Below, one piece after another: positions 702-55,310 of a stretch of DNA of 64,000 nucleotides. Under the pieces are notes generated by a model. It saw only the letters and a list, made by a program, of their open reading frames with translations, did no database searches and was not told the DNA's origin. The stretch is from Methanoculleus bourgensis MS2 (GTDB lineage Archaea > Halobacteriota > Methanomicrobia > Methanomicrobiales > Methanoculleaceae), in contig NC_018227.2 of assembly GCF_000304355.2 (NCBI RefSeq), positions 1,488,001-1,552,000 on the forward strand. The letters are read 5' to 3'. The translations under genes and the position numbers were made by a program. How positions within the stretch are numbered: the first letter of the stretch is position 1; each line of letters begins with the position of its first letter.

Positions 702-1372
702 TTGTCTCATCGAATACCCTCAATTTTTCTTTTTCATTTGCGAGCGGATGTGTCCGGCGAAGGCTGCCGGATCGAATCATTAGTGAGATCTCCGGCCGTA
801 AGAGGGAATTTCCTGCCTGAAGATCAGCATACCTCTGGTGTTCTTCTGCCGGTACGAAACCGACGATACGTGCGATGCCGATCAAGGCCGGCGCTGATGC
901 GCAGAGGGTACGTTCGTCCATCGTTCGCCTCAGGGCGGGTTTTTCTGTGGTTTTTCCGGTTTTTTTGGACCGGATTGGGAACCCCAAAGAGAAAGCCCGC
1001 TGTGTGGCTCGCCGACGGGTATTTCACCTAAATTTCCACGAAGAGATCCCTGGTTTGGCGACCGGGAGCCTCCCCTGTTCTGTTCCGTTCCATCATGCCC
1101 CGGGTCTGGCTTGTGCGGAGAGGGGGAGACCCTCTTCCCCGCGGTGAAGAGCCACCACGTTCCACTGCTCCCCGGGGATAGGTCGCTGATCTTGAAGCAA
1201 CCGTTGTTTGGCACACTTATGACTCGTTCCATCTTTTTTGCACGGTTGTCGTCCTTGTAGCGCCTGAGGTCCGTGACCGGGTTGAACGTATCGCCGGAGG
1301 CGCTCACCGTACAGATGTTCACCCTGACCGAATCATTGATGTGGCACGGGGGTATCTCACGGTCGGGATGGT
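702..1372. other. Intergenic region with decayed repeat and possible gene fragment
   Basis: No convincing intact gene lies here. Bases 1152-1168 resemble the core CCACCACGGTCCACTGC of the dispersed repeat seen elsewhere in the window (one mismatch), preceded by the purine-rich block GGAGAGGGGGAGACC also found near 15850. The motif TATTTCACCTAAATTT at 1020 matches the end signature of that family. A T-rich patch follows the aEF-2 stop (725-735) and could end its transcript. The right end may hold a gene fragment (separate entry). Confidence 0.5.
1143..1360 (-). pseudogene. Possible gene fragment, function unknown
   Basis: Read on the minus strand, about 70 codons give a protein-like sequence (NICTVSASGDTF, then TDLRRYKDDNRAKKM) with natural residue composition. 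It has no good start codon and runs into the repeat-derived sequence at 1143. It may be the tail of a lost gene. I do not recognise the family. Confidence is low because the stretch is short and the claim rests on composition alone. Confidence 0.25.
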
Positions 1373-3690: not shown

Positions 3691-3746
3691 GCGGGTCCTA
3701 TAGGGTGTTTCGCGCGAAGCAACAGTTGTAGTGGGGTATATCATCT

Positions 3747-3968
3747 AAAAACCCCCATGAAAACCGCCCCGTTTTGGGCAGTTTATCATACCCGGGCAGG
3801 GTTTTTCCGGGTATCGTCACACACTGCCCCCGCCGCCTGCAGGGAGGGGGCGAGCCCCCCTCCCCTGCCCCCACCCCGCCGGGGTGATGTCCACCACGGT
3901 CCACAGCAGGGGATGAAGCGATTTTCATTCGTGCAACATGAGACTCTGCCTCATAGTGGTTTCAGGCG
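3747..3968 (+). repeat. Dispersed intergenic repeat R1, full-length-like copy
   Basis: Copy of the main dispersed repeat. Blocks in order: CATGAAAACCGCCC-like sequence at 3757; CCCGGGCAGGGTTTTTCCGG followed by a TATCGTCACACACTGCCCCC-type block at 3791-3830; a GC-rich hairpin (GAGGGGGCGAGCCCCCCTC) near 3842; CCACCACGGTCCACAGC at 3891-3907; and CATTCGTGCAACATGAGACT at 3927, running to GTGGTTTCA. The right end abuts the DUF1917 gene exactly: the terminal TCA of the repeat is the complement of that gene's stop codon. It separates two convergent genes and could act as a bidirectional terminator or mRNA 3' stabiliser (inference). Confidence 0.75.
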
Positions 3969-4612
3969 CTGTAATAGGTAACCTTCTTGCCCTCTTCGCT
4001 GTACTCGCCCCGGTAGGTCTCGATGTTTCGTTTGTAGCCGAGCCGTTCCACAAAACCGAGGTCACGGAGCCGTTCGCGGACCCGCATCACGTCAGCCTCG
4101 TCCGCCCAGTCCCGGGTGTAGACATAGATGACCGCCCGCTCGTCGCGTGAGTCGGGGTTCGGTTTGGCGGTGCTGACTTTCGCCGATATCCCGAGCATCC
4201 CGCGCGCCGTCTCGTCACGGATCTTTCTCCACGCCTCATCCACCTCGCCGCGGGGGACGAAGATGAGCCATTTTCCTACCTGCTCATCATCAAGACCCCT
4301 CGCTGCCGGTCCCGGCTCGTCCTGGACGATCCAGTACATCCGGGTCGTCTTTGAGGGGAGAATGCCCTCACCCGCCAGTATCTCTGCGTAGATCGTGTCT
4401 ATCTCGCCGAACCGCAGGAGAAGCGCCTCGGCGAGCGCCGGGTAGTCCTCCCGGAACCGCCCGAAGATCTCACGGACGTCGGCTTCAAAATCAGTTCCCT
4501 GCTCGACATGTTCAAACAGGTAGGGACCATGGGCACCGAGTTCGCGGTCGAGGAAGATCTCAAAGATCCCGTATGCGACCTCGGCCAGGGACTCCGGATC
4601 GATCTCTTCCAT
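3962..4612 (-). CDS. DUF1917 domain protein (BLES03/UPF0696-like)
   Basis: 216-residue protein. The C-terminal two-thirds fits the DUF1917 family related to eukaryotic BLES03: YWIVQDE, then GKWLIFVPRGEVDEAW, then GMLGISAKVSTA, ending in a YKRNIETY motif. The family's biochemical role is not established. The start is taken at the ATG at 4612 (MEEIDPES); the frame is open further upstream but that part overlaps thi4 and does not look like protein. The gene lies 43 bases downstream of thi4 on the same strand and may be co-transcribed with it. Its stop codon is formed at the border of the dispersed repeat. Confidence 0.8.
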   Translation of the reverse strand: MEEIDPESLAEVAYGIFEIFLDRELGAHGPYLFEHVEQGTDFEADVREIFGRFREDYPALAEALLLRFGEIDTIYAEILAGEGILPSKTTRMYWIVQDEPGPAARGLDDEQVGKWLIFVPRGEVDEAWRKIRDETARGMLGISAKVSTAKPNPDSRDERAVIYVYTRDWADEADVMRVRERLRDLGFVERLGYKRNIETYRGEYSEEGKKVTYYSA

Positions 4613-4655
4613 ACCTATTGGTAACTGCCGGAGCAGTAAAAAATGATCTGATGTG

Positions 4656-5420
4656 TTACCGGCCCAGTCTCGCCGCGACCAGGTCTGCGGCACGCTCTCC
4701 GGACAGAAGCATCCCCCCGAAGATCGGTCCCATGCGGCACTCCCCGGCAACGGCGTTTGCCGCCATCCCGGTAACGAAGAGGCCAGGGAAGACCTCCCGC
4801 GTGTGATCGAGGATCTGCGACTCCGCACGCTCGGCCCACATGAAACTCTCACCCTTCACCTGGAGTCTGCCGCCTTTCCGTTCGATCATCCGGGCGACCA
4901 TGGCATCGTGGCCGGTCGCATCGACGGTGCAGGTGCAGGCCACGGTGAGCGGGTCGACGTGCAGCCCGGCCATATCGACCGGCGTCCAGTTGATGACGAG
5001 ACCGCCGACCCTGCCGTCGCCACGGATCATGACGTCCTCGACGGTGGTGAGGTTGAAGAACTCGACGCCGGCATCACAGGCTGCCGCGGTGAGTTTGGAG
5101 ACCGTCTCAACCGATTTTGCGACGTAGTAGCCCGGCTCAAACTCCCGGTAGGTGATCCCGAACCGGTCAAGGAGCCGCCGTGCCTCATCCTGGACAACGA
5201 TCCGGGGAAACATCATCCCGCCGCCCCACATCCCTCCGCCGATACTGAGTTTCTTCTCGATGAGTGCGCACTTGACTCCCTTCTCGCCAAGAAGGGCGGC
5301 GCAGGCGAGCCCTGAAGGTCCACCGCCGACGACGGCAGCGTCCATCTCAAGGTAGTCGATGATCGCCTGATGCTGCTCCTCGAGAATAGCCCTGCTGATG
5401 GTCACTTCGTTGAGTGTCAT
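4656..5420 (-). CDS. thi4: Sulfide-dependent ADP-thiazole synthase Thi4
   Basis: 254-residue Thi4 family enzyme, which makes the thiazole half of thiamine from NAD and glycine. The dinucleotide-binding motif GGGPSG is at residues 32-37, followed by the glycine-rich GGGMWGGGMMFPR segment. At the position of the sacrificial cysteine of yeast Thi4 there is a histidine (His154 in AGLHVDP), as in the methanogen enzymes known to take free sulfide as sulfur donor; the protein is therefore expected to be catalytic rather than suicidal. The start ATG at 5420 (MTLNEVTIS) has AGGATC just upstream. ThiC, for the pyrimidine half, is at 25.5 kb. Confidence 0.93.
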   Translation of the reverse strand: MTLNEVTISRAILEEQHQAIIDYLEMDAAVVGGGPSGLACAALLGEKGVKCALIEKKLSIGGGMWGGGMMFPRIVVQDEARRLLDRFGITYREFEPGYYVAKSVETVSKLTAAACDAGVEFFNLTTVEDVMIRGDGRVGGLVINWTPVDMAGLHVDPLTVACTCTVDATGHDAMVARMIERKGGRLQVKGESFMWAERAESQILDHTREVFPGLFVTGMAANAVAGECRMGPIFGGMLLSGERAADLVAARLGR

Positions 5421-8400: not shown

Positions 8401-8559
8401 CTGCCCGTGATTCGTAACCCGGGGTCATCGTTTTGGTTTGGGGTAACGGTTATGCCCGGTCGGTCTCGCGAGGCCGAACTCACCTCACCTGTCAAAAGAC
8501 CGATGATTGGACCGGTGATGGGGCGGGGTAATACTGACAGTACCGCATACACTTGTGGA

Positions 8560-8785
8560 CCATTTCACCTTATGTTGCGGGTTCTGGTGCGGATCACGCG
8601 GAAGATCGCGAAGGGGTGTGGAGCGTTCATGGGGCAGAGCGAGAGGCTGTACGCAGGAAAACACCCCATTCCCCAGGCTCTCACCCCATGCTGTGGACCG
8701 TGGTGGCTATCACCCTGGGGCACAAACAGAACCATGATTCCCCCACCCGCCAAAGCCCGGGCGGTTTTCATGGGAAATGCTAGCT
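8560..8785 (-). repeat. Dispersed repeat R1, inverted copy
   Basis: Same block order as at 3.8 kb but reversed: the end signature ATTTCACCTTA with GGTTCTGGTGCGGATCAC at 8565-8600; the block ATGGGGCAGAGCGAGAGGCT, complement of the CATGAGACTCTGCCCCAT-type block, near 8629; GTGGACCGTGGTGG at 8693-8706; and GCCCGGGCGGTTTTCATGGG near 8756. It fills the gap before the PAC2 gene, which is transcribed toward it. Confidence 0.7.
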
Positions 8786-8992
8786 GAAATGATCCACTAG
8801 AGCGTTGATGGCCGCTTCGTGCACAAGGATGCTCCATGAGATCGCGACGACAGATTCTTCCCTCGCGCGAGATCTCATCCCCTGCAACCGTTGACGCACG
8901 CTGAAACCCGCAAAGAACGTACTGGCGATCAGCCGGATCCCACGCGAAGACAGCCGGGCAGGAGACCCGCACGTACCCAAAAAAAGGATATC

Positions 8993-15756: not shown

Positions 15757-15925
15757 CCCCTGAAAACCGTGTAGGGTTGGCGAGCGGGACGTTTCAGGGA
15801 ATTCGCTCATCAGGCCCCGGGCACAGATTTCCCACGGGTATCGCCTCTGCGGAGAGGGGGAGACCCCCTCCCCGGTCCCCACCCCCAATTGCGATATCCA
15901 CCACGGTCCACTGCATGGGGCTAAG
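15757..15925 (+). repeat. Dispersed repeat R1, first of a tandem pair
   Basis: Contains CTGAAAACCG near 15762, GGCCCCGGGCACAGATTTCC followed by GGGTATCGCC near 15814-15843, a GGAGAGGGGGAGACCCCCTC hairpin at 15851, and CCACCACGGTCCACTGC at 15898-15914. The distal CATGAGACTCTGCC block is missing; the next copy starts instead. It lies in the convergent gap between the ADP-ribosylglycohydrolase and UPF0179 genes. Confidence 0.7.
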
Positions 15926-15944
15926 CCCGGGGAAGAATCAGGTT

Positions 15945-16220
15945 CTGGCTACCCCCGGATACGGCTTTCCTCCCGTCTATCGCCACGCACTGCCCCCGCC
16001 CCCGGGCGGGGGAGGAGGCCGGAGGCCGGGAGGGGTGGGGGTACAGGAAGGGAATAACAGGTATCTTCTGCCCACCCCCAACGTGATTCCCACCACGGTC
16101 CACTGCCCGGGCCATCCCGGGGGAAGGCGTTTCTCATTCGGGCAGCATAAGACTCCGCCCCATAGTGGTTTCACACGCAACGTTGGCTCACGCACAAGAA
16201 CCAGCAAAATAAGGCGAATC
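15945..16220 (+). repeat. Dispersed repeat R1, second of a tandem pair
   Basis: Blocks: TATCGCCACGCACTGCCCCC near 15978, a GC-rich inverted motif (CCCCCGCCCCCGGGCGGGGG) followed by AGGAGGCCGGAGGCCGGG, CCACCACGGTCCACTGC at 16090-16106, the CATTCGGGCAGCATAAGACT block at 16136 ending in GTGGTTTCACAC, and the end signature GCACAAGAACCAGCAAAATA at 16192, followed by AGGCGAAT. It is the most complete copy in the window. Confidence 0.75.
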
Positions 16221-33208: not shown

Positions 33209-34858
33209 TCACCGCGGCAGACGCTGCAGCCTCTCGTAGTATTTGACGGCCTCGGCGGAGCGGTCGAGAGAGATGAGAGCCATCGTCATACCCCTGAGCG
33301 CGTCGGCATCGTCGGGGTTCGCGGCGAGTGCCCGGTTGTAGCATTCGAGCGCCTCCTCAGAACGTTCCATGATCACGAGAGCGTTTCCTTTCATGCTCCA
33401 GATCTCCACCTTTGCAGGGTCGGCCTCGAGCGCCCGCGCATAACAGGTGACGGCCTCGCCGTACCGCCCGAGGATGAAGAGGGCAAGACCCTTCTTGCAC
33501 CACGCGTCCGCGTTCCCGGGGTTGGCCCGGAGTTCCTGGTCATAACAGACGAGCGCCTTGTCGTAGTGCGAGAGGATCGAGAGGACGTTTGCCTTGTTGT
33601 TCCAGACCCCACGGTTCACCGGGTCGATCTCGAGCGCCCGCTCGTAGCAGACGAGCGTTTCTTCGTAGCGCTCGAGCCGGTAGAGCGCGTTTCCGTAGTT
33701 GTTCCAGGCGACGGCGTTCTCAGGCGTCGCCCGGACCACGGTCTGGTAATTCGCGACCGCCGCCTCGTAGTTCCCGAGTGCGTAGTAACTCTCGCCCCGG
33801 TAGTAGCAGGCGCCCGGGTGGTCGGCCCGGAGCCTGAGCGCCTGGTCGAAGCACTCTATCGCCTTCTCGTAGCGCTTCAGGTTGAAGAGAACGAGACCCT
33901 TCCGGTGCCAGATCTCGGGATCGATGGCGTTCTCCCTGAGCGCCCGGTCAAAGCAGATGAGCGCCAGGTCGTAGCGCTTCAGCCTCTTCAGCGCCATGGC
34001 TTTATGATACCAGATCCCGGCAAGATCAGGGTTGGTCCTGAACGCCCGGTCGTAACAGTCGATCGCCTCCTCGTAGCGCTCCAGGTTCTGGAGTGCAAGG
34101 CCCCTGTTGTACAGGGTTTCGGCGTCACCCGGGCGGACGGCGAGCGCCCGGTCGAAAGACCGTACAGCCTCCTCGTAGCGTTTCAGCGTTGCGAGCGTGC
34201 GTCCCCGCGTAGACCATGTATCGGCATGACCAGAATCGATGGCAAGCGCTTGATCGTATGAGTCGAGGGCGTCCCCGTACCGGGAGAGAAGGACCTGGAT
34301 CGTCCCCCGGGCATACCAGGCATTTGCGTTCCCGGGATCGAGCGCGATGACCCGGTCGTAGCAGTCGATCGCCGCGTCATACCGCCTATCGACGGCAAGC
34401 ACTGTTCCCCTGGCAAGCCAGGCCTCGATGCGGCCCGGCTCGATAGTGACAACCCGGTCGTAGCATGCGAGCGCGTCGGTGGTCCGCCCCATGTTTCTGA
34501 AGGCGTGCCCCCGGGTGAGCCAGGCATCCGCGCAGTCGGGTGCGAGTTTCACCGCCTGCCCACAGTACTCAGCGGCCTCCTGGTAGTGCTGAAGGCGGTA
34601 GAGCGCCTGACCCCGGGCGGCCCAGAGCCGGACACAGTCAGGATCGATCCGGATCCCCTGGTCGAAGCATTCGGCCGCCTCCCGGTAGCGACAGGCGGTG
34701 TTGAGGACGCGTCCTTTGTGGTACCAGGCAGTGGCGGCATTGGCGTTCAGTTTGAGGGCCCGGTCGTAGCACTCGATTGCGCGATCGTACTGCCCCCGCT
34801 CGCCGTATGCCCGTCCCTTCCTGCACCAGTCCTCGGCACTCTTCCAGGGAAGAACCAT
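33209..34858 (-). CDS. Large tetratricopeptide-repeat protein
   Basis: 549-residue protein consisting almost entirely of about 16 consecutive 34-residue TPR units with the pattern W-x-x-x-G-x-x-L-x-x-L-x-R-Y-x-x-A-x-x-x-[FY]-D-x-A-L. No other domain or signal peptide is seen, so it is probably a cytosolic scaffold. The start is set at ATG 34858 (MVLPWKSAEDW), where the repeats begin; the frame is open upstream, but that part has no repeat character and overlaps the RadC start region. A second, shorter TPR protein of the same style is at 54.4 kb. Confidence 0.88.
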   Translation of the reverse strand: MVLPWKSAEDWCRKGRAYGERGQYDRAIECYDRALKLNANAATAWYHKGRVLNTACRYREAAECFDQGIRIDPDCVRLWAARGQALYRLQHYQEAAEYCGQAVKLAPDCADAWLTRGHAFRNMGRTTDALACYDRVVTIEPGRIEAWLARGTVLAVDRRYDAAIDCYDRVIALDPGNANAWYARGTIQVLLSRYGDALDSYDQALAIDSGHADTWSTRGRTLATLKRYEEAVRSFDRALAVRPGDAETLYNRGLALQNLERYEEAIDCYDRAFRTNPDLAGIWYHKAMALKRLKRYDLALICFDRALRENAIDPEIWHRKGLVLFNLKRYEKAIECFDQALRLRADHPGACYYRGESYYALGNYEAAVANYQTVVRATPENAVAWNNYGNALYRLERYEETLVCYERALEIDPVNRGVWNNKANVLSILSHYDKALVCYDQELRANPGNADAWCKKGLALFILGRYGEAVTCYARALEADPAKVEIWSMKGNALVIMERSEEALECYNRALAANPDDADALRGMTMALISLDRSAEAVKYYERLQRLPR

Positions 34859-35046
34859 TTTGTGAGTGATAGTGGTCCCCCAAACAAAAGGATTTCGATA
34901 GGGGCTGGGGGAATTCCGCCGGCCGCGAGAAGAACTGCCACCTGAAGCCTCCCCGGCGGGGATATCCTCCCTGAGTTCGGGGCTGTTTGGCAACGTATAC
35001 ATGTCCCAGGGTCGAACCCGAGAACAGGAACAACCTCTCAGGCCGG

Positions 35047-35721
35047 ATGAGCATGAAGAAGATGCGCGATCTCCCGAGCCACGACCGTCCACGTGAGAAA
35101 CTGGCCTCCCGCGGAGCGGAAGCCCTCACCGATGTCGAACTGGTCGCTCTCCTCCTCGGGCGGGGCGTGAAGGGGCGGGACGTCTCGCAGATCGCCGGCG
35201 AAGTCGCACGCTACCTGAAGGATAACGGCGGGAGTCCGTCGTACAAAGAACTCCTCGCGATAGAGGGGGTCGGTTCAGCGAAGGCCTGTGAGATCATGGC
35301 CTGCTTCGAACTCGGGCGCCGCTACCTGGCAGACGACGGCGTCGCGGGGAGCCGAATCACCCGCCCCGATGACGTGCTTCCGCTGGTCAGCGAGTGGCGA
35401 GATCGGAAACAGGAGTATTTTTTGTGTATCACGCTCAACGGTGCCGGGGAGGTGATCGAGCGCCGGGTCGTCACTGTCGGGATCCTGAACCAGAGCCTCG
35501 TCCATCCCAGAGAGGTCTTTGCCGAGGCGATCACCGACCGTGCCGCATCGGTCATCCTGGTCCACAACCACCCATCGGGGACCCTGGAGCCCTCCTCCCA
35601 GGATATCGGCATCACCCGGCAGCTCGTCGAGGCCGGGTCGATCCTCGGCATCAGGGTGCTTGACCATATCATCATCACCAAAAAGAGCCACGTGAGCCTG
35701 AGAGAACTCGGGCACCTCTAG
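35047..35721 (+). CDS. radC: RadC family JAMM-domain protein
   Basis: 224-residue RadC. The N-terminal helix-hairpin-helix region (LLAIEGVGSAKACEIMACFE) is followed by the JAB/JAMM metal site VHNHPSGTLEPSSQD. RadC was once called a DNA repair protein but its true function is not settled. The family is mainly bacterial and appears in some methanogens. The start is one of several close ATGs (35047, 35053, 35062); the first is used. It is divergent from the TPR gene. Confidence 0.9.
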   Translation: MSMKKMRDLPSHDRPREKLASRGAEALTDVELVALLLGRGVKGRDVSQIAGEVARYLKDNGGSPSYKELLAIEGVGSAKACEIMACFELGRRYLADDGVAGSRITRPDDVLPLVSEWRDRKQEYFLCITLNGAGEVIERRVVTVGILNQSLVHPREVFAEAITDRAASVILVHNHPSGTLEPSSQDIGITRQLVEAGSILGIRVLDHIIITKKSHVSLRELGHL

Positions 35722-36164: not shown

Positions 36165-36310
36165 GCCCGGGCAGGGTTTTCCCCGGGTATCGCCACACAC
36201 TGCCCCCGCCCCCTGAGGGGCGGGGGAGGAGGCCGGAGGCCGGGCGGGGTGGGGGCTACGAGGAGGGATCTACGAGTTCCGCCGCCTGTGGGGAGGGGGC
36301 TCGCCCCATA
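36165..36310 (+). repeat. Dispersed repeat R1, left half
   Basis: CCCGGGCAGGGTTTTCCCCG begins the copy near 36167 and is followed by TATCGCCACACACTGCCCCC near 36188, then GCCCCCTGAGGGGCGGGGGA and GGAGGCCGGAGGCCGGG. It ends in GGAGGGGGCTCGCCCC, beyond which unrelated sequence begins. It is nearly identical over this stretch to the copies at 3.8 and 16.0 kb. Confidence 0.75.
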
Positions 36311-36554
36311 GGCGTTAACTTACCAGCTGGGTGGAATGCATTCTCGGTGATACCGGCAAGTACCAGGCAATCGGCGAGTTCTCATCTATGCCCCAAGGCA
36401 ATCCGTTTCCCATGAGATTTCCATGATCCCTATCGTTTGAAGCGCAGAAGGACTATTGCCGCACACCACCGGAATTGTGTGGCTGATATCTCGTCAAATC
36501 AGCCACATTTCACCGAATAGGATATTATCCGCTCGAATTCTCATGGCTAAAGTT

Positions 36555-36705
36555 AGCGCTCATGGGGGCTCGCCCCCTCCCCGGTCCCCACCCCCAGGGC
36601 GATGCCCACCACGGTCCACTCTCCGGGGACAAACCTGAGGGGAGGCCATTTTCATGCGTGCAGCCTCTCGCATAGCCCCGTGTGGGTTTCACACAGCATG
36701 AGTTG
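36555..36705 (+). repeat. Dispersed repeat R1, right half
   Basis: CATGGGGGCTCGCCCCCTCC opens the copy, followed by CCACCACGGTCCACT at 36606-36620, the CATTTTCATGCGTGCAGCCT block at 36647 and GTGGGTTTCACAC at 36682. Together with the copy at 36165 it could be one element split by ~240 bases of inserted sequence (see findings). Confidence 0.7.
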
Positions 36706-42925: not shown

Positions 42926-43130
42926 TTTCACCTTAGCTTGAGGGGGCGTGGGAGCGATCGCCGGTCTCTCGCGTTGAGCGCGAAGGACGCGAAGTTCGGC
43001 TGCTGGGCGGCATAGTCCCCTTCGCGCTCTTCGCGACTTCGCGTGAGGTTTCGGTATAGAGGTGCTCCAGTCTCTCGCGCTCTCCCGCGTGGTTTCCGCG
43101 TGAGATTCCATACCCCCTATACCGAAACCC
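42926..43130. repeat. Dispersed repeat R2 (GCGAAG-rich inverted motifs)
   Basis: Starts with ATTTCACCTTAGCTTGAGG and CGTGGGAGCGATCGCCGGTC, then GAGCGCGAAGGACGCGAAG, its complement-like CTTCGCGCTCTTCGCGACTT with CGCGTGAGG, and CTCCCGCGTGGTTTCCGCG. TTTCGGTATAG at 43050 is repeated in reverse complement (CTATACCGAAA) at 43117, so the segment can fold on itself. It fills the gap between two convergent genes (methyltransferase and DUF457-like). Confidence 0.7.
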
Positions 43131-53442: not shown

Positions 53443-53694
53443 ACTAGTACATCGATTCCAAATTGACAGACTATATCGGGCCTTCGTCCCATCCCCCGCG
53501 GAGCGCTCCCCTTCGTCCCCCCACCCCGCCCGCGCTTCGCGCTCCTCCCCCGCCCCTACCGGGGGCGGGGGCAGTACCCGGGCGTATATCCGGTGGAAAG
53601 CCGTCCTTCGGGATGCAAACCCCCGGATAGTGTGAAAAAAGGTCGATACTCTCCTCCGTTGAGCGTGCCGGTAATTTGGAATCATTGTACTAGT
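53443..53694. mobile_element. MITE-like element with ~22-bp terminal inverted repeats
   Basis: The left end has ACTAGTACA then GATTCCAAATT (53443-53464). The right end is the reverse complement with two mismatches (AATTTGGAATC then TGTACTAGT, 53673-53694). The 252-bp unit has no coding capacity; its middle (53490-53600) is an inverted half-copy of repeat R1 (GCGGGGGAGG-type blocks and GGGGGCGGGGGCAGTACCCG). No clear target duplication is seen next to the ends. Confidence 0.55.
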
Positions 53695-53815
53695 GCTCTT
53701 TGTCATCTTAAACCCAAAAATCCGACGTCACCTTCGCGATCTTCGCGACTTCGCGTGAGGTTGTAGCGGGCTCCCCGTCTTCATATGTGGCAATTGGCAT
53801 TCCACCTCGTGCATC

Positions 53816-53909
53816 GAAATCTTCAAAATAAAGTGACACGATGCACTAGTGCCAAGTCAACGACAAATTGTCGCAATAGTGCACCGTGTCATCTTATTTT
53901 AGAGATTTT
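53816..53909. repeat. Large imperfect palindrome
   Basis: Left arm at ~53816-53850 (AAATCTTC, then AAAATAA, GTGACACGATGCACTA) is matched by the complement of ~53874-53909 (TAGTGCACCGTGTCAT, then TTATTTTAGAGATTT). About 36 bp per arm and a ~23-base loop that itself holds GACAAATTGTC, a small palindrome. It overlaps the left end of the next inverted-repeat unit. Confidence 0.65.
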
Positions 53910-54155
53910 TGGAACCTTGTTGTCATCTTCAATGTAGAGATCTCCCGTCTCTCTTCGCGTCTTCGCGTCTTCGCGTGATGGGTAATAGAGAGTACCAACG
54001 TCTCACGCGAAGCCGCGAAGGGCGCGAAGGGGCGTTGCAGGGGATTATACCGAACTTCGCGGTCTCCCGCGTGGCTTTCTGCGTGAGACCAGAGTGCCCA
54101 TCCCAGCAGCACGAGCACGCCCATATCCGACGTTGAATGATTGACTTGGCACTAG
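53846..54155. mobile_element. Second MITE-like unit with 15-bp perfect inverted ends
   Basis: CTAGTGCCAAGTCAA at 53846-53860 and its exact reverse complement TTGACTTGGCACTAG at 54141-54155 bound a 310-bp segment. Its interior holds repeat R2 (TCTTCGCGTCTTCGCGTCTT at 53956; CACGCGAAGCCGCGAAGGGC at 54004). No transposase is encoded. It may be a relic of an insertion sequence with only the ends kept. Confidence 0.55.
53943..54105. repeat. Dispersed repeat R2 copy
   Basis: TCTTCGCGTCTTCGCGTGAT at 53962-53981 and CACGCGAAGCCGCGAAGGGC at 54004 face each other as an inverted pair, followed by CGCGGTCTCCCGCGTGGCTT and GCGTGAGACC. A shorter relative (CTTCGCGATCTTCGCGACTT, then CGCGTGAGGTTG) lies at 53732-53766, outside the 15-bp ends. 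Confidence 0.65.
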
Positions 54156-54410
54156 ATTATTTCACCTAATTTTACAGGTTCTGGTGCGGATCACCGCCCC
54201 AACACCCCGGGGTGCCTCTCGCGTCGCCGTGAAGCACGTGATGGGGTGCGAAACACTCATGAGGCTACCCCTCATGCTGCACAGATGAAAACGACCTCCT
54301 GGTTGGGGGTGGTTGCAGGATAGACCCGGTCTGTCTTTTCCGCCAGGCTCGCCCCGGGCAGTGGACCGTGGTGGGCTCGCCCCCTCCCCGCAGGCGGCGG
54401 AACTCGAAGA
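54156..54410 (-). repeat. Dispersed repeat R1, inverted copy
   Basis: The end signature TTATTTCACCTAATTTTACA is followed by GGTTCTGGTGCGGATCAC at 54179, the block CCTCATGCTGCACAGATGAA at 54268, the core GCAGTGGACCGTGGTGG at 54358-54374, and CTCGCCCCCTCCCC after it. The order matches the copy at 8.56-8.78 kb. It stands just downstream of the TPR gene stop at 54429. Confidence 0.7.
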
Positions 54411-54428
54411 CCCAGGGGCCGGCGTCCC

Positions 54429-55268
54429 TCACCACTTCTCGATGAGGGAGAGAAGCAATTTTCGGACCTCTACGGTCAGTTCACAGGAGGGGTTGATCTC
54501 AAGCGCTTTATCGGCGCACGCAAGCGCGTGGCGATACATCCCAAGGTGGTAGAGGACGCTGCACTTCATGCTCCATCCGGCGGCATACCGTGGATCGAGC
54601 GAGAGCACCCGGTCAAAACAGGCGAGCGCCTGCCGGTATTCCCCGAGCGCATACAGGGCACCCCCCCTCAGGCTCCAGACGCGGACATTCTCGGGGTCGT
54701 CGGCGATGGCCCGGTCGTAACAGGTGATGGCCTCCTCGTGCCGGTGCTGGAGGAAGCGTGCGTAGCCGAGATCGATCCAGGCCGCTACAAAGTGCGGATC
54801 GATCGCAAGCACCCGCTCGTAGCAGGCGACCGCGTCATCCAGGCGGCGCATCGCGGTAAATATCCCGCTCCGGTTGTACCAGGCGACCGCGGAGTTGGGG
54901 TTGAGCGCCAGGGCACGGTCGTAGCAGACGAGCGCCTCATCGAGCCGGTTGCGACGCCGGTGCAGCATCCCCCGGGAGACCCAGGCAGGAGCGAAGTCAG
55001 GGTCGATCGAGAGCGCCTTCTCCCAGCAGGCCAGCGCCTCCTCGTCCCTGCCGAGGAGATCGAAGAAGACGCCCTTGTTGTTCCACATCTTCACGTTCTC
55101 CGGATCGCGCTCGAGCACCCGGTCAAAACAGGCTATCGCCTCACAAAACCGCCCCTGCTGGGCGAGAGAAACCGCCTGCCTGCTCACCGCCGTATCAGTT
55201 CCCGGCCCCGCCCGGTCTTCGGGCTCGCCCTTTCCGAAGAGTCTTCCTGTAATACCCATTCCGGACAT
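54429..55268 (-). CDS. Tetratricopeptide-repeat protein
   Basis: 279-residue protein with about seven TPR units of the same style as the 549-residue protein at 33.2 kb (AIACFDRVLERDPENVKMWN, then ALACWEKALSIDPDFAPAWV). An N-terminal ~30 residues lack repeats. The ATG at 55268 (MSGMGITG) is used because the TATA box at 55301-55310 makes the upstream ATG at 55301 unlikely; ATG 55259 is also possible. Function unknown, probably a scaffold. Confidence 0.85.
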   Translation of the reverse strand: MSGMGITGRLFGKGEPEDRAGPGTDTAVSRQAVSLAQQGRFCEAIACFDRVLERDPENVKMWNNKGVFFDLLGRDEEALACWEKALSIDPDFAPAWVSRGMLHRRRNRLDEALVCYDRALALNPNSAVAWYNRSGIFTAMRRLDDAVACYERVLAIDPHFVAAWIDLGYARFLQHRHEEAITCYDRAIADDPENVRVWSLRGGALYALGEYRQALACFDRVLSLDPRYAAGWSMKCSVLYHLGMYRHALACADKALEINPSCELTVEVRKLLLSLIEKW

Positions 55269-55300
55269 CCCCCCCGTGGTCAGGCTACTGGTGGCGGGCA

Positions 55301-55310
55301 TATAATATAA
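55301..55310 (-). promoter_or_regulatory. TATA box of the TPR gene
   Basis: TTATATTATA on the minus strand, ~35 bases from the chosen ATG at 55268; transcription start expected near 55280. Confidence 0.5.

Follow-up and report, generated by a model that had tools for sequence, protein, structure and literature searches.

R1 copies in the window differ in composition

The window is a stretch of 64,000 nucleotides from Methanoculleus bourgensis MS2 (positions 1,488,001 to 1,552,000 of a genome analyzed as one contig of 2,789,774 bp) and contains copies of a dispersed repeat, R1 (Table 1). One of these copies reaches into the minus-strand, Bles03-like gene at 3962 to 4852. The stop codon of that gene, whose border a first-pass annotation of this DNA had attributed to R1, falls in the final part of the copy, and R1 thereby sets the C terminus of the encoded protein.

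Comparison of the window with itself recovered the R1 copies listed in the first-pass annotation, with E values down to 1e-22, and bore out its copy count and block order. The copies are not, however, instances of one common element: those at 36.17 to 36.70, 53.45 to 53.69, and 8.556 to 8.796 kb differ in make-up, and the first of these is a single R1 copy interrupted by a 256-bp MITE. The supposed end word of the repeat, GGTTCTGGTGCGGATCA...ATTTCACCTAA, is the terminal inverted repeat of the MITE family represented at 8.556 to 8.796 kb and falls outside the R1 core. Two related tetratricopeptide-repeat genes (33209 to 35092 and 54429 to 55301) were also detected as DNA repeats in the self-comparison; they are unrelated to R1. 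Further MITE-like elements, with ends TAGTGCATCGTGTCACTTTATTTT, are present at 53694 to 53845 and 53880 to 54150, and their inner word CTCACGCGAAGNCGCGAAG occurs again near 43015 and 55801 and within the A elements described below.

Table 1. R1 copies, core words, and MITEs in the window (window positions)
Feature	Position	Strand	Details
Degenerate core word CCACCACGTTCCAC	1152-1165	+	Copy without intact G4
R1 copy under study	3732-3964	+	From self-comparison, repeated elsewhere in the genome; degenerate MITE-A-like left end (3732), left arm with CCGGGTATCGTCACACACTGCC, hairpin, G4 tract, core word, TTTTCAT...CATGAGACTCTGCCTCATAG end
GC hairpin GGGAGGGGGCGAGCCCCCCTCCCC and four C-tracts CCCCCCTCCCCTGCCCCCACCCC	3842-3877	-	C-tracts give a G-quadruplex motif on the complementary strand (central loop GCA; motif start 3855)
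Core word CCACCACGGTCCAC	3891-3904	+	
Complete MITE-A, 241 bp	8556-8796	-	R1 core inside (word 8693-8706); flanks CTTG/CTAG, a target duplication with one mismatch
R1 core copy	15851-15961	+	Hairpin and G4 tract (from 15864), word 15898-15911
R1 left-arm module	15954-16053	+	TATCGCCACGCACTGCC at 15978 and GC hairpin
Second R1 core copy	16071-16173	+	Word 16090-16103; tandem to the first
R1 left-arm module	36166-36268	+	TATCGCCACACACTGCC at 36188
MITE-D insertion in R1 hairpin	36295-36576	+	Element 36308-36563, 256 bp, ends ATAGGCGTTAACTT/AGTTAGCGCTCAT; 13-bp duplication GGGGGCTCGCCCC at 36295-36307 and 36564-36576
Right half of split R1 copy	36564-36662	+	G4 tract and core word 36606-36619
C-type MITE	53448-53689	-	Ends TACATCGATTCC/TACAATGATTCC, flanks CTAG/CTAG; R1 cargo is the left-arm module alone (53518-53604)
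A/B-type MITE, 152 bp	53694-53845	+	No R1 core; adjoins the C-type MITE, one CTAG common to both
Truncated MITE-A with R1 core	54153-54413	-	Word 54361-54374; C-tracts deleted, hence no G4

The R1 core combines a GC hairpin, a G-quadruplex motif, and a conserved word

A genome-wide search with the core word CCACCACGGTCCAC, allowing at most one mismatch, gave 172 matches, compared with 1 for the reversed word. Resemblance through chance GC-rich composition, a possibility raised when the repeat was first annotated, is excluded by such near-zero controls. We analyzed 171 core sites in 119 stretches around the matches (594 kb, including the window). These stretches were picked around cores, which biases the number of insertions counted near cores; numbers that come from whole-genome searches are free of this bias.

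The core spans approximately 100 bp and consists of a perfect GC hairpin, the four tracts of a G-quadruplex (G4) motif on the opposite strand, and the near-invariant word CCACCACGGTCCACTGC. When anchored on the word, the copies are similar from about -55 to +35 bases, and in one subfamily the similarity extends from -150 to +155. Across 51 diverse copies from several species, the common order is GGGGAGGGGG, a short loop, CCCCCTCCCC, a spacer of 2 to 5 bases, CCCC[A/T]CCCC(C), and GGYGATANCCACCACGGTCCACTGC; the GGGGAGGGGG and CCCCCTCCCC blocks pair to form the core hairpin. A left-arm module, composed of TATCGCCACNCACTGCC and a second GC hairpin, is often found 5' of the core.

The four C-runs of the core constitute the four-tract G4 motif on the complementary strand, and strong G4 motifs in this genome are nearly always associated with R1: 77 of 80 are at most 120 bp from a core word. 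None of 2,261 background windows contains such a motif, and shuffled flanks gave a mean of 0.03, against 77 observed. The congener G001, which is nearly without core words, has one such motif. About half of the cores retain an intact G4 (77 of 171 by a strict definition and 98 of 171 by a relaxed one). In stretches from two other congeners (L150 from G006 and L252 from G002), the core palindrome is longer and G4 motifs occur on both strands, as in GGGGGAGGGGCTGACGGGGAGGGGGG-loop-CCCCCCTCCCCTGTCCCCACCCCCC of L150.

Two MITE families carry the core

Many cores lie within MITEs of two related families. The A ends, of the form TGSANCRTTTCANCTTA, occur in pairs spaced 140 to 300 bp apart, and the C ends, of the form TGCAACGATTCCNAATT, in pairs spaced 200 to 830 bp apart. 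The search for MITE terminal inverted repeats found 339 ends, against 6 in the reversed control; the genome-wide count of A-type ends was 337, compared with 0 in the control and 0 to 15 per congener. Among 173 candidate A/C end pairs, some of which overlap, 122 have equal flanking tetranucleotides (shuffled mean, 77; maximum, 92). The equal flanks include CTAC, GTAG, CTAT, GTAT, and ATAG, indicating that the target duplication is a 4-bp NTAN. A and C elements also stack head to tail, because an element end beside a CTAG target restores CTAG.

Empty sites in relatives were found for one A element and for two insertions that interrupt R1 copies, an A and a D. The first is a 246-bp A element containing a core (genome positions 898,652 to 898,897; duplication ATAG/ATAG), situated 52 and 54 bp from the neighboring genes. 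It is absent from congeners, at least six of which have sequence that aligns with the joined flanks through the junction. In the second case, at L138, an A element splits a core between GATAGCCACTAC and CTACGGTCCACTG, with CTAC duplicated, and the orthologous gap of G002 contains an intact core with no insertion.

Are all R1 copies members of one MITE family, the stand-alone cores being decayed remains? Inside A or C elements with matching or nearly matching duplications are 53 of the 171 cores; a further 39 have a single MITE end nearby, as decay would leave them, and the remaining 79 have none. The ordered blocks of the first-pass annotation would likewise fit a 240- to 300-bp A element. Comparison across the genus nevertheless makes this explanation largely false, since congeners with tens of cores have so few A-type ends, and the stand-alone copies of G006, G002, and G148 share a different surround (left arm ACACGG..TATCGCC). 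We consider it improbable. The A-end counts, high here and low in congeners, indicate instead that the MITE burst is lineage specific and the cores are not. The suggestion that R1 is a nonautonomous mobile element therefore applies to the MITE-borne cores and fails as a full account, because cores occur without MITEs throughout the genus and also occur at conserved positions.

A third MITE family inserts in the core hairpin

MITE-D, an element of approximately 256 bp with ends ATANGCGYTAACTTT, inserts in the core hairpin. Its duplications of 12 to 13 bp are identical within a site and different between sites: GGGGGCTCGCCCC in the window, GGGGGAGACCCCC at L106, and GGGGGCAAGCCCC at L085. D-type ends gave 48 matches genome-wide and 1 in the control. 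The R1 stretches account for one-fifth of the genome sequence and contain 42 of the 48 matches, nearly all of which abut a G-run/C-run palindrome. The copy at L106 has an orthologue in G006 whose core is not interrupted by MITE-D. The IS4-family element IS231 has a preference for GGG(N)5CCC targets and produces duplications of a length similar to those of MITE-D; no IS231-like parent of MITE-D was identified here. Several G006 cores (L235, L241, and L154) are split by a different repeat that contains words such as GAGCACCGAAGGTGCG and GGTTCTACGAACCGTCG and is perhaps a species-specific counterpart of MITE-D.

We looked for mobilizing transposases at the six DDE_Tnp_1 loci of the genome. None of the six is bordered by A or C ends, and none is a parent insertion sequence with ends matching those of the MITEs. 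Two of the loci adjoin half of a D element, which is part of a split D copy. They are insertion sequences of 1,722 bp, 100% identical and in opposite orientations (L175:897-2618 and L176:1232-2953, at about 1.37 and 2.54 Mb in the genome), with a 554-amino-acid frame containing DUF4277 and DDE_Tnp_1 domains, and each abuts a different half of one MITE-D. Considered as the autonomous partner of D, this is apparently an unrelated insertion sequence that splits a D element. A chromosomal inversion between its two copies probably followed the split.

R1 is palindromic, intergenic, and multicopy, like the REP sequences, and its cores might be moved, as in a REP/RAYT system, by a Y1 (IS200-like) transposase. 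No Y1_Tnp domain is present in this genome, however, and the 7 of 35 congeners that have one are mostly core-poor or core-free (for example, G010, G030, and G019), while most core-rich congeners are without it. Such a system is extremely improbable.

Cores are enriched between convergent genes, whether mobile or not

The 132 core-bearing gaps comprise 63 convergent, 49 tandem, and 20 divergent gaps, as delimited by a simple codon-usage gene finder that may misjudge individual gaps. Convergent gaps are in excess over divergent ones (P = 2.4e-6), and the split agrees with the published distribution of the G4/hairpin motifs (Chashchina et al. 2021; PMC8044849). Only 2 of the 171 cores lie within predicted genes, and core orientation in tandem gaps (36:22) shows no significant preference. 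The ratio of convergent to divergent gaps is 23:6 for cores in MITEs and 30:9 for stand-alone cores. Because mobile and stand-alone copies are equally biased, the bias is no evidence for a function or a 3' end signal, and tolerance of insertions in such gaps can account for it.

The first-pass annotation also raised the possibility of a structured RNA, for which compensatory changes would be expected. A structured noncoding RNA or an RNA 3' end signal would be consistent with the near-perfect hairpin, preserved in 90% of cells. No consensus structure was obtained with RNAalifold on the alignment of 51 diverse copies, and none with ViennaRNA on 131 copies. Covariation of the hairpin pairs, which are essentially invariant G-C, was 0.051, no better than the 0.047 to 0.061 obtained when the partners were slid by -1 to -3 columns, and Rfam gave no match other than tRNAs. 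Together with the lack of a significant orientation bias relative to genes, these results make an RNA function very improbable.

R1 is restricted to one family, and many copies are old

Counts of CCACCACGGTCCACTG (at most two mismatches) range from 10 to 185 in most Methanoculleus genomes. The sequence is also frequent in one member each of two further genera in the family and falls to control level in the order's remaining families; outside the family, a core-word version of 16 bases is at background level. Within the genus, the sequence is nearly absent from the complete genomes of some congeners, among them G001 and G030, and is rare in G010. A longer core pattern was found in 54 contigs in a search of 84,980 genomes, all of them from Methanoculleus or from MAGs labeled Methanomicrobiales or Euryarchaeota. 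It had no match in viral contigs, and viral spread was rejected as an explanation. The family-limited counts and the near-absence from some congeners indicate that the repeat is family restricted and dispensable.

For 7 of 20 core loci of G006 and G002, both flanking genes border one and the same core gap in M. bourgensis, against a chance expectation of approximately 5% (calculated from 132 core gaps and an assumed number of about 2,700 genes). Cores in the same gaps of other species indicate that many copies are old. At two more loci, the flanking genes are found next to different cores in M. bourgensis, separated by 4 and 15 kb, which suggests insertions or rearrangements at cores. Positional conservation is seen in part: at some shared gaps (L050 and L103, compared by eye), the core is stand-alone in the relative and MITE-borne here, and part of the conservation may therefore reflect repeated insertion into tolerant gaps.

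R1 as a hitchhiking palindrome and landing pad

Taken together, R1 is a composite of a core and MITE layers and is neither a structured RNA nor a single mobile element. We think it probable that an old, family-wide, REP/BIME-like palindrome has been multiplied in this genome by MITE hitchhiking and serves in addition as a transposon landing pad. The inner layer would be an old intergenic palindrome of the Methanomicrobiaceae, made up of the GC hairpin, the four-tract G4, and GYGATANCCACCACGGTCCACTGC, with REP/BIME-like behavior and with many copies inherited in place. The outer layer consists of gene-less MITEs, presumably mobilized in trans by transposases. Families A and C, with their 4-bp NTAN duplications, would have captured the core and scattered copies of it, and this hitchhiking would account for the high core copy number in M. 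bourgensis. For family D, the core hairpin is the preferred target, with 12 to 13 bp of hairpin duplicated. Copies may gather in convergent gaps mainly because insertions there spare promoters and genes. Counting against this explanation is that no transposase with matching ends is found among the six DDE_Tnp_1 loci.

Alternatively, the core could be a DNA element maintained by the host at convergent gene ends, with mobility secondary. It would act as a transcription boundary or as a topology or replication-pausing site, by means of a cruciform or G-quadruplex and a protein reading CCACCACGGTCCACTGC. The convergent excess, the scarcity of cores within genes, the preservation of the word and G4 tracts across genera, and the gaps that hold a core in several species are consistent with such an element, as are the oligonucleotides reported in the cited portion of PMC8044849 to adopt G4, hairpin, and triplex forms. 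Against it stand the equal bias of MITE-borne and stand-alone copies, the insignificant orientation preference in tandem gaps, the near-absence or rarity of cores in some congeners, and the loss of an intact G4 from about half of the cores. We judge it unlikely. The two ideas can be combined in a G4/cruciform switch between convergent genes, read by a protein through CCACCACGGTCCACTGC and spread or replenished by transposons as both cargo and landing site; this, too, is doubtful. Conservation of the word CCACCACGGTCCACTGC across species is stricter than the drift of dead insertions would suggest, which hints at protein recognition and is the best remaining pointer to a binding protein. Overall, we favor passenger DNA with REP-like behavior and give a host function of R1 a minor but real chance.

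Comparison with known systems

The G4/hairpin half of R1 has already been published. In the cited portion of their report, Chashchina et al. (2021; PMC8044849) describe G4/hairpin motifs of the Methanomicrobiaceae, termed rPQS, all of them intergenic, with about half tail-to-tail and 11% head-to-head; synthetic oligonucleotides fold in vitro as G4 (in potassium), hairpin, and triplex, and the authors favor a transcriptional role. R1 shares with rPQS the four G-runs, one-base outer loops, and the Methanoculleus central loops GCA, ACC, ACA, and CTGAC (most of the 80 motifs in this genome have TGC, GGT, TGT, or GTCAG at the center of the C-strand). It also shares the adjoining complementary C-tract that forms the hairpin, paired here in 90% of cells, the intergenic location, and the tail-to-tail excess. 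In that portion of the account, the C-tract is the sole flanking motif given, and CCACCACGGTCCACTGC and the left arm are not mentioned; nor are the MITE carriers, target duplications, nested insertions, empty sites, and positional conservation described here. Quadruplex repeats have been regarded as probable regulators, in the literature cited here, on the basis of their repetition and preference for gene ends. In this genome, about a third of the copies ride in mini-transposons and share the preference for gene ends, so that function can be argued neither from copy number nor from position.

The MITE families resemble other prokaryotic MITEs, as characterized in the cited part of a review (PMC10969869), in being short, gene-less, and present in many copies with terminal inverted repeats and target duplications. 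That part of the review names no Methanomicrobiales MITEs. Unlike usual MITEs as described there, the present families are interlocked at CTAG junctions and carry a preexisting G4 repeat as cargo, and no parent insertion sequence was found for them at the six DDE_Tnp_1 loci.

REP and BIME repeats are insertion-sequence targets (Tobes and Pareja 2006; PMC1525189), and R1 is like them in consisting of intergenic GC palindromes that are landing sites for specific transposable elements. R1 differs in being archaeal, in its G4 motif and unrelated sequence, in having no Y1/RAYT gene, and in that its inserters are gene-less. REP sequences that serve as transposon landing pads have a counterpart here in an archaeon, one in which the order of nested insertions can be read.
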